Assembly: GCA_947569225.1 (NCBI GenBank)
Contig: CANORX010000015.1
Span: 1-11,622, forward strand
Direction of reading: 5' to 3'
From: an uncultured Clostridia bacterium
Lineage (GTDB): Bacteria; Bacillota_I; Bacilli_A; RF39; UBA660
DNA: 11,622 bases
Shown here piece after piece: positions 4,188 to 7,161 of the stretch. The notes beneath the pieces were generated by a model. It ran no database searches. It was not told where the DNA came from and was given only the letters and a program-made list of their open reading frames with translations. Position 1 is the stretch's first letter. Every line of letters starts with the position of its first letter. A program made the position numbers and the translations under genes.

Positions 4188-4190
4188 TGA

Positions 4191-5447
4191 GTGGTTAATG
4201 TGAAGAAAATAATAGGAATGACTTTTCCAAAACAAGATACTAATCTTGGGCTTGAGCCATCACTTTTAACAGTTCTTCCTAGTGGAGATAATGTTATGTA
4301 TTCAATGGAAAATATTGACTTTAATGATGAAGAAGTAGAGTATTATGCATGTTCAGTTTATATAACTGGGATGAGAGAATTTAAAGAGTGGGCTAGTAGA
4401 CATGATAAAAGTAAAATTATTGTTGGAGGATATGAACCTACTATTAATCCTCAAGAATTTGTGCCTTTTGCGCATAAAGTTATGGTAGGGCCATGTGATG
4501 ATTTTTACGCTAGTATAGCGCAAGAAGGGGATATTATTAATGGTATTACTAATTATAAGAGAATACCTAGATATGATTTATATGATATTAAAAATAATCA
4601 ACAAATTATACCTCTAAAAAAGAGAGATGATATTGTTACAAGTATTAATACTTCTCAAGGGTGTCCATTTAAATGTGATTTTTGTTGTAGTCCACTTATG
4701 TGTGATAGGTTAATATCTAAGCCTTTAGATTTAATTAAAGAAGAAATAGAGTTTTTAAAGAATTTTAATCCTAAGTTTGTGTTTGTTAGGGATGAAAATT
4801 TTCCACTTCAAATAGATTGGAGAGAAAGATTAATAGCTATTAATGATATGGGAGCTAAAATATATTTATTTGCATCTGCTAATTTATTAACAGAAGATAA
4901 TGTTAAATTTATGAAAGAAAATGGTGTATATATGGTTTGTCTTGGGCTTGAAGATATAACTGTTGATTATGCTAAAAATAAAAAGTTAGATGAGGTTTGT
5001 GATTTACTTCATAGTTATGGTATTATGGTTTATTTATCATTTATAGTTAATCCTTTGAAAGTTAAGACTCAAAGGGAAAGTGATAAATTTTATATAAAAT
5101 TAATTAGTAGATTTTGTGATTTAAAACCTGAGATGGTGTGTGGTAACTTCTTAATGCCTTTTAGAGGTACAAAGATTTGGGAAGATTATAAAGATTTAGT
5201 TAAAGAAGAAGATTTTGATTTTTATAATTCTAAAAGTGCCTTTTTAGAAAAAGATTTAGTTAATAGAACTAGAATGGAATATGAAATGTTTTATTATCAG
5301 TGGCTTTATTATAATTCAGAGTTTTATAGAGATAATGTTAGAGATTTTCATGTTGGAGATACTTTAGAAGAAAGATTTATAGAACTTAGAAGAGAATTTG
5401 AAGGGAAAGAGAATAAATTGGTTTTAGGTAAAAGTTTATTAAGATAA
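4191..5447 (+). CDS. Radical SAM protein with B12-binding-like N-terminal domain, function unknown
   Basis: The canonical radical SAM cluster motif CxxxCxxC is present in SQGCPFKCDFC (Cys158, Cys162, Cys165), so it should bind a 4Fe-4S cluster and SAM. Residues about 45-110 (YYACSVYITG, then KIIVGGYEPTINPQEF) look like the Rossmann-type cobalamin-binding-like domain that precedes the barrel in many such enzymes; a cobalamin-ligating DxHxxG motif is not evident. The N-terminus is uncertain: GTG 4191 follows an in-frame TGA, a second GTG lies at 4200, and neither has a clear Shine-Dalgarno site, so translation may depend on coupling to the Nudix gene three bases upstream. It is the last gene of operon A before a terminator. 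I do not recognise a named subfamily. Context suggests a link to NAD or nicotinamide metabolism, but this is not shown by sequence. Confidence 0.85.
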   Translation: MVNVKKIIGMTFPKQDTNLGLEPSLLTVLPSGDNVMYSMENIDFNDEEVEYYACSVYITGMREFKEWASRHDKSKIIVGGYEPTINPQEFVPFAHKVMVGPCDDFYASIAQEGDIINGITNYKRIPRYDLYDIKNNQQIIPLKKRDDIVTSINTSQGCPFKCDFCCSPLMCDRLISKPLDLIKEEIEFLKNFNPKFVFVRDENFPLQIDWRERLIAINDMGAKIYLFASANLLTEDNVKFMKENGVYMVCLGLEDITVDYAKNKKLDEVCDLLHSYGIMVYLSFIVNPLKVKTQRESDKFYIKLISRFCDLKPEMVCGNFLMPFRGTKIWEDYKDLVKEEDFDFYNSKSAFLEKDLVNRTRMEYEMFYYQWLYYNSEFYRDNVRDFHVGDTLEERFIELRREFEGKENKLVLGKSLLR

Positions 5448-5465
5448 TGTTATTGGAAAAGTTAT

Positions 5466-5509
5466 AGAGCATGAGTAAAGATGAATAATTTTTATTTAGC
5501 TCTTTTTTT
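5466..5509 (+). terminator. Terminator of operon A
   Basis: AGAGC (5466-5470) and GCTCT (5499-5503) enclose an AT-rich loop with some inner pairing (AATAA 5484-5488 / TTATT 5492-5496), followed by a run of seven T. The stem is short, but the T run and position after the last gene support it. Confidence 0.55.
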
Positions 5510-5779
5510 GTTGTAGAAAGCAGCTATATAATTTAAACTAGTACTTTAGATTTGTATAAAAAAGTTATAATGAATATATTAGAAATGAATGTCAAATTAT
5601 AAATTTATCAAAATTTTAAATAATTAGGAAAAACTACTTTACGTATTTATTGGCATAAATAAACTCCAACAACTGTAAAACTTTTAATGTTATTCCAAAT
5701 GATTATATATTTTTTTTCATGAAATAATAATAAATACAATCATCCTTCAATATTTTTATATAATTATTTAAATGTTTGC
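5510..5779. other. AT-rich intergenic stretch, nothing recognised
   Basis: Between the operon A terminator and the small-peptide locus I find no convincing gene, RNA or repeat. A TATAAT at 5566-5571 has no acceptable -35 at the right distance. Confidence 0.5.
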
Positions 5780-5825
5780 TTGTTTTTATATATTATTGAG
5801 AGTAAAATGTAATTAGGAATATTTA
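5780..5825 (+). promoter_or_regulatory. Candidate promoter region of the small membrane peptide
   Basis: Two weak options exist: TTGTTT (5780-5785) with 17 nt to TAAAAT (5803-5808), or TTGAGA (5796-5801) with 18 nt to TATTTA (5820-5825). The second would start the RNA near 5832, just before the GGTACTATTC element that is complementary to the 3' end. Neither is strong. Confidence 0.35.
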
Positions 5826-5843
5826 GTTAGTTTGGGTACTATT

Positions 5844-5870
5844 CTCCTTTACTTTTAGAAGTGGAAGGAG
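5844..5870 (+). promoter_or_regulatory. Hairpin masking the Shine-Dalgarno site of the small peptide
   Basis: CTCCTT (5844-5849) is complementary to AAGGAG (5865-5870), the core of the ribosome binding site. An inner stem ACTT (5851-5854) / AAGT (5859-5862) closes a TTAG loop. About ten pairs would hide most of GGAGG and limit translation, as in leaders of type I toxin mRNAs. The unmasked site AAGGAGGTGA is a full match to the 16S 3' end and stronger than those of neighbouring genes. Confidence 0.6.
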
Positions 5871-5878
5871 GTGAAATT

Positions 5879-5971
5879 ATGAGAAAGAAAGACGAATATC
5901 TTTATATTATCATAATACTCCTTATTATTGTGATTTTAATCATTCTAATAAAAATAGTACCAACTGTATAA
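5879..5971 (+). CDS. 30-residue single-span membrane peptide, candidate type I toxin
   Basis: The peptide has a charged N-terminus (MRKKDEY), an almost pure Ile/Leu/Val segment from residue 8 to 24 that would span the membrane once, and a short KIVPTV tail. A perfect Shine-Dalgarno site ends six bases before the ATG, which makes translation very likely despite the small size. Charge, one hydrophobic helix and size match small toxic peptides of type I toxin-antitoxin systems, but I cannot match it to a named family such as Fst, TxpA/BsrG or Ldr. The surroundings support the idea: an SD-masking hairpin, complementary 5' and 3' mRNA ends, a terminator at 5995-6035, and a convergent antisense promoter and terminator over its 3' half. 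A harmless small membrane protein remains possible. Confidence 0.65.
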   Translation: MRKKDEYLYIIIILLIIVILIILIKIVPTV

Positions 5972-5980
5972 GTCGGTACT
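5946..5980 (-). terminator. Intrinsic terminator of the antisense RNA
   Basis: Read on the minus strand, AGUACCGACU and AGUUGGUACU form a ten-pair stem with one G-U pair and a 5-nt loop, followed by AUUUUUAUU. On the plus strand the same site has an A-C mismatch in place of the G-U pair and no T run, so the structure is tuned to the minus-strand RNA. Confidence 0.62.
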
Positions 5981-5994
5981 TTACCTAAATTTTT

Positions 5995-6035
5995 GGAATA
6001 GTACCTAACTCTTCAAAACTAGGTATTCCTTTTTT
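5995..6035 (+). terminator. Terminator of the peptide mRNA, also complementary to its 5' end
   Basis: GGAATA (5995-6000) pairs with TATTCC (6024-6029) and CCTA (6004-6007) with TAGG (6020-6023), with a small bulge and then six T. GAATAGTACC (5996-6005) within it is the exact complement of GGTACTATTC at the 5' end of the transcript (5835-5844). AGTACC here can also pair with GGTACT at 5975-5980. Confidence 0.68.
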
Positions 6036-6063
6036 ATTTTATGCAAGTTTCCTTGACATATTC

Positions 6064-6092
6064 ATAATAACATATTTTATTATTTTTGTCAA
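6064..6092 (-). promoter_or_regulatory. Promoter of the antisense RNA
   Basis: On the minus strand, TTGACA (6092 to 6087), a 17-nt spacer and TATTAT (6069 to 6064) form a near-perfect sigma-A promoter. It points toward the 3' end of the peptide gene and is clearly stronger than the peptide's own promoter, as expected when an antitoxin RNA must be in excess. Confidence 0.62.
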
Positions 6093-6110
6093 AAGGCTCT
6101 TGTAATAGAA

Positions 6111-6144
6111 TAAAAAAATCTTTTTAATAATTTGTTAAAAAGAT
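6111..6144 (-). terminator. Weak AT-rich minus-strand terminator upstream of operon B
   Basis: ATCTTTTTAA (6118-6127) and TTAAAAAGAT (6135-6144) are a 10-bp inverted repeat directly before the -35 of operon B. Read on the minus strand it is followed by a run of T. It could stop leftward transcripts before the antisense promoter. The stem has one G-C pair, so support is modest. Confidence 0.3.
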
Positions 6145-6145
6145 G

Positions 6146-6174
6146 TTGACATTTTAGTGTGTTTTTAATATAAT
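6146..6174 (+). promoter_or_regulatory. Promoter of operon B
   Basis: Exact consensus: TTGACA (6146-6151), 17-nt spacer, TATAAT (6169-6174). It matches the pncA promoter through spacer, start region and leader, and was probably the original nadE promoter before the gene at 6269 came to lie in between. Confidence 0.88.
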
Positions 6175-6184
6175 GTTAGTAACA
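6174..6184. promoter_or_regulatory. Candidate NrtR operator, proximal site of operon B
   Basis: TGTTAGTAACA is a perfect palindrome around a central base, beginning at the last base of the -10. It is the counterpart of 1482-1492; the central base differs but both arms are conserved, as expected for a dimeric repressor. Confidence 0.62.
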
Positions 6185-6201
6185 AGTGAAAATACTTGTT
6201 A
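6180..6201 (+). promoter_or_regulatory. 5' leader hairpin of operon B
   Basis: TAACAAGT (6180-6187) pairs with ACTTGTTA (6194-6201) around a 6-nt loop. It corresponds to the pncA leader hairpin with a compensatory change in the stem. Confidence 0.45.
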
Positions 6202-6213
6202 AAAAATATAATA

Positions 6214-6224
6214 TGTTATTAATA
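6214..6224. promoter_or_regulatory. Candidate NrtR operator, distal site of operon B
   Basis: TGTTATTAATA is identical to the distal site of operon A, one change from the palindrome, and 40 bp from the proximal site. Confidence 0.45.
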
Positions 6225-6255
6225 AAATGTTAAAAAGAAGGGGAGATAAAAGAAA

Positions 6256-6330
6256 ATGAAAAATTTTAATGTTAAAGAAGAAACTAAAAGAGTTATTTTT
6301 AGAATTGGTGGTGGTATTGGTGTTAGATGA
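6256..6330 (+). pseudogene. Truncated copy of the nadE 5' end
   Basis: Behind the Shine-Dalgarno site GGGGAG, the ATG at 6256 opens MKNFNVKEETKRVIFRIGGG, then stops at TGA 6328-6330. The true NadE starts MRNFNVKEETEKVI and has GVILGISGGKDS a little later, so the remnant keeps the first ten codons. VIFRIGGG may also be a damaged P-loop block after loss of about sixteen codons. A 24-bp stretch (6261-6284) is identical to 7167-7190 in nadE. It shows that the promoter at 6146 once led directly into nadE. Confidence 0.75.
6261..6284 (+). repeat. Direct repeat, copy 1 (nadE 5' remnant)
   Basis: 24 bp identical to 7167-7190, inside a longer similar stretch that includes the ribosome binding site (from about 6236). 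The two copies bracket the unknown gene. Confidence 0.85.
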
Positions 6331-7105
6331 TAATAGAAAAAATAGATTAACTATTTTAAATAAAGTTCCAAGCGGGACATATAATATAAATTTAAATGGT
6401 CAAAATATAAGCTTAAATGTATTCGATGATTTTTATGGACTTGATAGTTGGTATTATAGTGAAACGGAATATGATATAAGAAAAAATGTGCAATGTATAA
6501 GTGAAAATGGAGATATACTTTTTAATATTATGTATTGCAATTGTTTTAGTAAAACTTCTAATGGTGGTTGTTTTGAAGTAGATATTGAAGCTATTTTACC
6601 TACAAATGAAGTATCTCAAGGGAATCGTCACTTGAGATACAGCACTTGGAATGGTGATAGTATTGAATATAGTATTAATGGAGTAAAATATACATTATCT
6701 GGTTTAAATCATGATTTTTATTTTCTAATTTTAGAAAAGGAATCTGATGTAAAACAAGTATACAATATAAGAAAAGATATGTTGTATAAAAAAATGAAAG
6801 ATTTTCAAATAGGAATTAGTTTTGAAGGTGATAATTTAAAAATAATTGAATCTAATTGGCCGTATAGTGAAATTATAGATGAAAGTATTATAAAAAGTAT
6901 TAATAAATTTGAAATTATAGAAGAACTAAAAAAAATAATTAAAGTTTTTGAAATTGGTAACAAAATTGTAGATGAATATCCTATTAATGAAATTATAGAT
7001 AAACTTATAGAGAATTTTGAATTAATTTTAATAGAAATTGAGAAAGGAAAAAAAGATAATAATAAACTCAAAAACTTATTTAACTTTTTTAAATATAATA
7101 GATAA
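6269..7105 (+). CDS. Unknown protein inserted between the NAD promoter and nadE
   Basis: I do not recognise this 278-residue protein. Its apparent first residues (MLKKKLKELFLELVVVL) are the nadE remnant read in another frame, so the native start has probably been lost or lies near 6310-6340. There is no well-placed Shine-Dalgarno site for ATG 6269; the nearest belongs to the remnant ATG at 6256. The central part is polar with many aromatic and Gly/Asn residues (SGTYNINLNGQN, FYGLDSWYYSETEY), suggesting beta structure. The last 90 or so residues are rich in Ile, Glu and Lys and probably helical (FEIIEELKKIIKVFEIGN). No signal peptide or clear membrane span is seen; the Val/Leu run near the N-terminus comes from the remnant. 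It is flanked by nadE-derived direct repeats and is not expected in an NAD pathway, so it looks acquired. It would be transcribed from the NAD promoter. Confidence 0.55.
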   Translation: MLKKKLKELFLELVVVLVLDDNRKNRLTILNKVPSGTYNINLNGQNISLNVFDDFYGLDSWYYSETEYDIRKNVQCISENGDILFNIMYCNCFSKTSNGGCFEVDIEAILPTNEVSQGNRHLRYSTWNGDSIEYSINGVKYTLSGLNHDFYFLILEKESDVKQVYNIRKDMLYKKMKDFQIGISFEGDNLKIIESNWPYSEIIDESIIKSINKFEIIEELKKIIKVFEIGNKIVDEYPINEIIDKLIENFELILIEIEKGKKDNNKLKNLFNFFKYNR

Positions 7106-7161
7106 ATATTTTTGAGATAATTATTTTAAGAAGAAATAAATTAAAAAGGAGAGATAAAAAT

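Follow-up and report, generated by a model that had tools for sequence, protein, structure and literature searches.

Judged by its sequence, a compact module at positions 5775-6093 of the window probably represents a new family of type I toxin-antitoxin systems (the window is the whole stretch of DNA analysed, 11,622 bp from contig C15; the draft genome amounts to 1.1 Mb in 193 contigs). It comprises two convergent promoters, a peptide ORF and two terminators, and is one copy of a large family that recurs throughout one group of uncultured gut bacteria and is apparently undescribed. The first-pass annotation had proposed the type I reading, which is supported by the antisense -10 box and terminator kept in 96 of 97 copies, by covariation and by the matches of a model restricted to the antisense half. 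Type I systems are hard to find because their peptides are short and their RNAs diverge; here, a family to which none of the searched libraries gave a match was recognisable by its antisense half alone.

Organization of the module

Features of the module are listed by window coordinates and strand, with their basis in brackets.

5780..5808, plus strand: sense promoter, -35 TTGTTT at 5780-5785, 17 nt, -10 TAAAAT at 5803-5808, start near 5815
5815..6036, plus strand: predicted toxin mRNA of ~222 nt (promoter and terminator positions; fold)
5815..5828, plus strand: 5' arm of the outer lock helix H1, pairing with 6017-6030 (covariation)
5832..5844, plus strand: 5' arm of the inner lock helix H2, pairing with 5996-6008 (covariation)
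5843..5871, plus strand: local hairpin masking the ribosome binding site (predicted fold; pairing in copies)
5865-5871, plus strand: ribosome site AAGGAGG, inside hairpin 5843-5871 and 7 nt before the ATG
5879..5971, plus strand: ORF of a 30-residue hydrophobic peptide, putative toxin (sequence, family matches, pN/pS)
5948..6057, minus strand: predicted antisense RNA of ~110 nt, putative antitoxin (promoter, terminator, covariance model)
5956..5980, minus strand: antisense intrinsic terminator (terminator scan; covariation)
5981-5994, no strand assigned: hypervariable linker joining the two 3' hairpins (majority identity 67%)
5995..6035, plus strand: sense intrinsic terminator, hairpin 5995-6029 then six T; holds the 3' lock arms
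6044..6055, minus strand: 5' hairpin of the antisense RNA, CAAG/CTTG (beyond the sense mRNA; variant stems in other copies)
6064..6092, minus strand: antisense promoter TTGACA-17-TATTAT with extended TG, i.e. TG-N-TATTAT (promoter scan; kept in copies)

The ORF encodes MRKKDEYLYIIIILLIIVILIILIKIVPTV, which displays a single membrane segment. Most of these parts had already been described, and the one-segment peptide, the maskable ribosome site, the sense terminator with its six T and the convergent promoter (6092-6064) with a terminator of its own (5980-5956) were all found in place. The sense promoter (5780/5803) was absent from that description. The size given for the antisense RNA (~110 nt) agrees with our prediction, whereas that of the sense RNA had to be corrected from ~200 to ~222 nt. 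The predicted antisense RNA spans the last peptide codons and the 3' UTR of the sense mRNA. A terminator scan of the window returned three terminator-like sites including the one at 5980-5956 on the minus strand, against 1.5 in shuffles; the sense terminator was absent from its output, its stem being bulged and its loop long.

Distribution and conservation

The module is a dispersed, sometimes tandem, repeat. A second close copy occurred in the same genome on contig C37 (92% DNA identity over 298 nt), together with a divergent copy on C34 encoding a different peptide, a module piece at the end of C65 and a weak covariance-model match on C7. With this 92% copy and 97 distinct full-length copies, the module is real and beyond chance. 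On C34 (L261, reverse strand), the divergent module is adjoined by a second one of its type, of which the 5' half is present, perhaps as the remnant of a tandem array.

Searched in 60 genomes, the peptide matched in 10 including the source genome, one of these matches (G021, E 0.0088, within a 419-aa frame) being probably due to chance. Within the bacterial family of the source genome, a peptide profile of 12 rows gave matches in 99 of 386 genomes and in 59 of 150 genera, several of them in tandem. The window peptide itself displayed no match in the eight other genomes of its genus; modules on the same chassis were recorded in at least four of these eight with the antisense covariance model. 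A tblastn search of the peptide against genome contigs gave no match, perhaps because a 30-residue query of low complexity cannot reach the required E-value; a DNA pattern then gave 95 stretches among named records. The titles of these refer to metagenome-assembled genomes from uncultured Bacilli, Tenericutes, Firmicutes etc., and the samples of many of them were labelled Lapin. An origin from a phage or plasmid was rejected, as no match to the module was found in phage and plasmid collections or viral contigs.

A DNA profile applied to 164 loci gave 201 hits, among which 117 were distinct and strong and 31 weak. The 97 distinct full-length copies could be aligned from 5775 to 6093, and conservation ended at ~5775 and ~6093, so that the conserved block is bounded by the two promoters; flanks fell to 53-60% majority identity. 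Majority identity was 88-98% in the lock arms, in the coding sequence and, on the antisense side, in the terminator and the -10, and averaged 79% in the antisense -35. For the sense promoter, the values were 81% (-35), 91% (-10) and 62% (spacer). The linker 5981-5994 (67%) was as variable as spacer, and was the most variable stretch of the RNA-RNA overlap. Since loci L050-L144 were picked by a 32-nt pattern inside the ORF, identity and pN/pS are biased there; the 45 copies not chosen by this pattern displayed a nearly identical conservation profile.

RNA structure and covariation

Both predicted RNAs folded better than any of their shuffles (z = -5.65 for sense RNA 5800-6035; z = -3.73 for the antisense RNA). 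The sense fold pairs the 5' end (5815-5828 and 5832-5844) with the 3' end (6017-6030 and 5996-6008, respectively) and places the ribosome site in a local hairpin. Pairing was then followed in alignment A3, which holds 27 divergent modules; 6 were taken from 54 non-redundant close copies and 21 from 33 weak ones, leaving aside duplicates and copies that were decayed or cut at an edge. In the lock and hairpins, 74.3% of the cells were paired, against 39-54% in slid versions and 67.6% in shuffles. Cells with double changes numbered 145, versus 66 for shuffles; pair types were not in excess (82 versus 80.1). The 13 main pairs of H1 formed in 91.4% of the cells with both sides changed in 8 of the 13, and those of H2 in 89.9% with both sides changed in 10 of 11 counted pairs. 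As for the ribosome-site hairpin, 1105 of 1137 ungapped cells paired in the 97 close copies, and its fit was poor in the divergent modules (62%).

The antisense terminator fitted sense alignment A3 poorly (46% of cells paired). In alignment A4, made on the antisense strand with 35 of 41 modules, both-side changes occurred in 6 of 7 pairs of its stem and in 6 of 8 pairs of the other antisense hairpin. At least 8 of its 10 pairs formed in every one of the 97 copies. Wobbles were strand-specific: on the plus strand of the 97 copies, H1, H2 and H3 displayed 174, 38 and 187 G.T against 14, 5 and 14 A.C (399 versus 33 altogether), counted as cells and not as independent events. The antisense terminator (H5) displayed the opposite, i.e. 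99 A.C (G.U in the antisense RNA) against 20 G.T, although much of the former count probably stems from one inherited position since the window copy itself has one A.C there. Taken together, these compensatory changes support the existence of a long 5'-3' lock in the mRNA and of the antisense terminator.

In the full-length window mRNA, the predicted unpaired probability was 0.06 for the ribosome site and 0.004 for the start. For the ribosome site it was 0.07 when the mRNA was cut at 6008 and 0.19-0.26 when it was cut further or bound by the antisense; the site is thus mostly masked in every form folded, and the folds do not account for the activation step of the mechanism proposed below.

The antisense half as a probe

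Covariance model R1 covers the antisense RNA and its promoter (156 positions) and contains little coding sequence. R1 matched in 272 of 372 genomes of this bacterial family and 116 of 150 genera (E<=1e-5). A class-wide control gave matches in 6 of 120 genomes, all six from that same family. Copy number reached 12 in one genome of 1.2 Mb (G012).

R1 matches included copies with quite different peptides. At 29 of 40 matches, a hydrophobic ORF of 22-42 codons led by a ribosome site was found on the opposite strand with its end at the predicted place, which was the case in 0.1% of mononucleotide shuffles; the remaining 11 had no ORF of this description. This test covered 40 of 42 matches, two being places seen twice, and 20 of the R1 places were chosen by hand among the matches listed, favouring those without a peptide of the window type. 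At least five types of peptides could be told apart by eye on this chassis, such as MKKKDLLISFLILIIILLIVSLMILSIKK, MKTKTFILKVLKLITIILFLLIIMIVVIKK, MTKKDFLIFALIVIIILLILLLFK and MTKRENSLFIIILLLFFIVITLLFR next to the window type; some of these types were also represented among the training modules of R1.

The antisense promoter was well kept in the 97 copies, with the TA...T of the -10 in 96, the extended TG in 94 and the TTG of the -35 in 91. Promoter and antisense 5' hairpin, the latter with variant stems such as GAAG/CTTC, both lie outside the mRNA and were kept in divergent copies. Together with covariation, strand-specific wobbles and the search with the antisense-only model, this conservation points to an antisense RNA that is functional and faces the gene of the hydrophobic peptide.

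In 38 of the 97 copies (e.g. L103, L031 and L128; not in the window copy), a terminator-like hairpin of the minus strand overlapped the antisense -35, as if shielding the antisense promoter from readthrough.

Apparent joint decay, and selection

Homologous loci keeping the peptide but having lost the antisense promoter and terminator had been named as the case that would speak against the type I reading. Among full-length copies, 96 of 97 kept the antisense -10 and the terminator stem, and in the exception, L120, the altered -10 was accompanied by loss of the ATG. Start and frame of the toxin were intact in 92 of the 97 (with a longer tail in L156, and one check shared by the two L091 copies). 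They were lost in five, by an early shift in L126 and L135, at the ribosome site and start in L009 and at the start codon in L120 and L050; L120 was the only one of these five with an altered antisense -10.

Three partial copies were devoid of the antisense half (L057, L107 and L136), and each was also toxin-defective. The frame was shifted in L107, which sits 117 nt from a contig end so that the site of its antisense promoter could be seen only in part; L136 lacked its 5' half; in L057 the sense -10 was unrecognisable and the peptide tail changed. Toxin defects thus concerned 4 of 4 antisense-defective copies against 4 of 96 antisense-intact ones (Fisher p 1.8e-5; 2.2e-4 without L057; 0.003 without L057 and L107), for decay classes set after inspection and for few copies, all from fetched loci. 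Left out of this count were L162, which kept the antisense promoter, had lost the antisense terminator and displayed a longer fused frame, and L158 (at 1402), which had lost its ribosome site and whose intact antisense half lies ~120 nt away from the toxin half. Joint decay of antisense and toxin expression is suggested by these cases.

Sequences L158:1579-1700 and L057 after 2081 looked alike by eye; both directly follow the toxin half, and in L158 this sequence splits the two halves.

Over 72 distinct sequences, the peptide displayed a pN/pS of 0.48. By region, it amounted to 0.50 in codons 1-10, 0.21 in codons 11-24 and 0.64 in codons 25-30, the middle value being only indicative because the DNA pattern behind about half of the copies lowers variation in codons 12-22. 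Silent variation decreased from 0.30 in codons 1-10 to 0.06 in codons 25-30, the part of the ORF overlapped by the antisense terminator.

Such purifying selection would fit any useful peptide, and many small membrane proteins are regulators. The product might accordingly be a non-toxic small membrane protein tuned by its antisense, e.g. a regulator of another membrane protein. We regard this as unlikely, as multicopy, tandem and patchy spread, divergent peptides on one chassis, the differing neighbourhoods of the copies and the few cases of joint antisense and toxin-expression loss all fit a toxin better.

Flanks and possible movement

Twelve pairs of modules displayed at least 95% identity. 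Two of them (L078/L048 and L080/L101) were flanked by dissimilar sequence on both sides, and L031/L033, with modules 99.7% identical, had dissimilar left flanks; most of the 12 pairs shared some flank. These differences around near-identical modules suggest some movement or gene conversion.

Discrete boundaries, tandem arrays and these same pairs would also be expected from a small selfish repeat, i.e. a non-autonomous intergenic element with promoters and hairpins serving chiefly its own upkeep. This was considered quite unlikely: the ends of the block coincide with the two promoters, both reading frame and structure are under selection, and some flank is common to most of the 12 pairs. The two readings overlap as well, an addiction module being able to be selfish too.

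Database and literature searches

Neither the window peptide nor 14 diverse members gave anything above cut-off in Pfam and NCBIfam, and the window peptide gave nothing above cut-off in PADLOC. Pfam and NCBIfam should contain toxin profiles for TxpA/BsrG and Fst/Ldr. The former did not occur among the Pfam/NCBIfam matches of the 14 members at E<=10, nor the latter among those of the window peptide and the 14 members. In Rfam, no family reached its gathering cut-off (best 27.8 bits versus a cut-off of 50), and a PDB search returned an integrin chain as its single match (E 0.23).

Divergent membership of the Fst/Ldr family (par of pAD1) would fit the convergent promoters, the peptide of about 30 residues and the masked ribosome site, but appears highly improbable and was rejected in view of the missing profile match, of two separate terminators instead of one bidirectional one and of inverted repeats in place of the direct DRa/DRb described in PMC7472228. 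A description of the family was not found in the literature covered, which included PMC6563280 and had subscription papers and T1TAdb outside its scope. The statement that the module is undescribed, with a peptide like no named family, thus holds for the libraries and literature searched.

Genomic place

4188..7161, no strand assigned: segment between a nudix gene and nadE (comparison with relatives)
6146-6174, no strand assigned: perfect consensus promoter TTGACA-17-TATAAT, just after the module (promoter scan)
6256-6330, no strand assigned: incomplete copy of the start of nadE, preceding an orphan ORF, nadE itself being found from 7162

The module had been placed between two NAD operons. This could not be upheld, as these are contiguous in two relatives: nadE directly follows the nudix gene in G001 (same genus), the same order occurs in G011 (another genus), and the segment is absent from both. 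A ~3-kb segment thus splits one NAD salvage operon. It consists of 2,974 nt with a radical SAM gene (without match in the eight other genomes of the genus), the module, the consensus promoter, the partial nadE copy and the orphan gene. In G004 and G006 (same genus), the nudix/nadE junction holds ~1 kb of other sequence, indicating that the site received DNA more than once or was rearranged. The promoter at 6146-6174 probably drives the downstream half of the split operon, and the nadE leader seems to have been captured by the orphan ORF (6269-7105), which matched nothing in Pfam or NCBIfam.

A leader peptide or attenuator for the downstream NAD genes, suggested by the position of the module upstream of nadE with a terminator between, is barely credible and was rejected along with an NAD-linked riboswitch: other copies in the genome stand beside other genes with differing flanks, a consensus promoter (6146-6174) follows the module, its downstream half is the antisense promoter, and nothing was found in Rfam.

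Proposed mechanism

In the toxin-antitoxin reading, the sense promoter would produce an mRNA of ~222 nt, in which the local hairpin is the first structure to mask the ribosome site. Once the 3' end is made, the two-helix 5'-3' lock, a structure backed by covariation, would close the whole mRNA. The convergent promoter would produce a 110-nt antisense able to pair with the 3' UTR and the last codons. As the 3' lock arms lie in the region covered, the central hairpin of this RNA (opposite 5996-6030) nearly reproduces the mRNA 5' arm; it could therefore displace this arm and form a duplex of ~90 bp. By analogy with TxpA/RatA, the duplex would probably be destroyed by RNase III. When the antisense runs out, surviving mRNA would be unlocked and translated, and the Ile/Leu helix would enter the membrane and stop growth.

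An RNase III gene was matched in 11 of 13 genomes searched. In the source genome, its frame (C49:91-711, L259) contains three in-frame TAA codons, all within an AT-rich stretch; this could reflect misassembly or a real loss.

As a broader proposal, possible rather than probable in our eyes, one RNA chassis made of the extended -10 antisense promoter, the antisense 5' hairpin, the covarying 5'-3' lock and two terminators would carry interchangeable membrane toxins in a small-genome family of gut Bacilli, with up to ~12 loci in a genome of 1.2 Mb. The antisense would displace the 5' lock arm by copying it, and the hypervariable, single-stranded linker 5981-5994 would act as a private recognition code for each locus. 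The family offers a natural set for testing toxin swapping and the divergence of antisense specificity between sister loci, and for asking why small genomes keep so many such modules. Model R1 is a ready marker for annotating these gut genomes.

Comparison with known systems

Features typical of type I systems that are found here are a short hydrophobic peptide (30 aa) behind its own AAGGAGG and, for the predicted antisense RNA, a promoter, a terminator and covariation. The predicted layout is of the TxpA/RatA - BsrG/SR4 kind, with a lock resembling those of hok and AapA.

Fst/RNA II (par of pAD1) is similar by its convergent promoters, hydrophobic peptide and masked ribosome site. Its peptide has 33 residues, structural features are conserved across loci and direct repeats DRa/DRb are present (PMC7472228). 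It differs by a bidirectional terminator, instead of the separate ones found here at 5956-5980 (minus strand) and 5995-6035 (plus strand), and by repeats that are direct there and inverted here, the mRNA 5' arm being complementary to its own 3' UTR. Moreover, the Fst type of pairing at the ribosome site does not apply, as the predicted antisense stops short of that site.

In TxpA/RatA from the B. subtilis Skin prophage, toxin mRNA and antisense overlap at their 3' ends, as predicted here over ~90 nt (5948-6036). There, the overlap is ~120 nt, the toxin mRNA contains a long helix and RNase III cuts an extended duplex (PMC3531473). Differences are an mRNA of ~270 nt against 222 nt, a prophage location against a multicopy intergenic element, the whole-mRNA lock displayed here and a peptide without profile match. 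The antisense of bsrG/SR4 (B. subtilis SPbeta) likewise overlaps the toxin mRNA 3' end, and acts both through decay by RNase III and by making the ribosome site inaccessible (PMC8309996). BsrG differs by its 38 residues with a cationic polar tail, and its profile was not matched here.

In hok/Sok and aapA/IsoA (Helicobacter pylori), a long-distance 5'-3' lock and transient ribosome-site hairpins silence the full-length mRNA, and the lock and hairpin predicted here are of similar layout. In aapA/IsoA, an 80-bp duplex forms between the antisense and the truncated mRNA, whereas here it lies opposite the mRNA 3' end and copies the 5' lock arm. Translation there proceeds from the 3'-truncated mRNA only (PMC6733600), and aapA, like the present module, encodes a 30-residue peptide and occurs in several copies per chromosome (PMC6733600 and PMC8309996).
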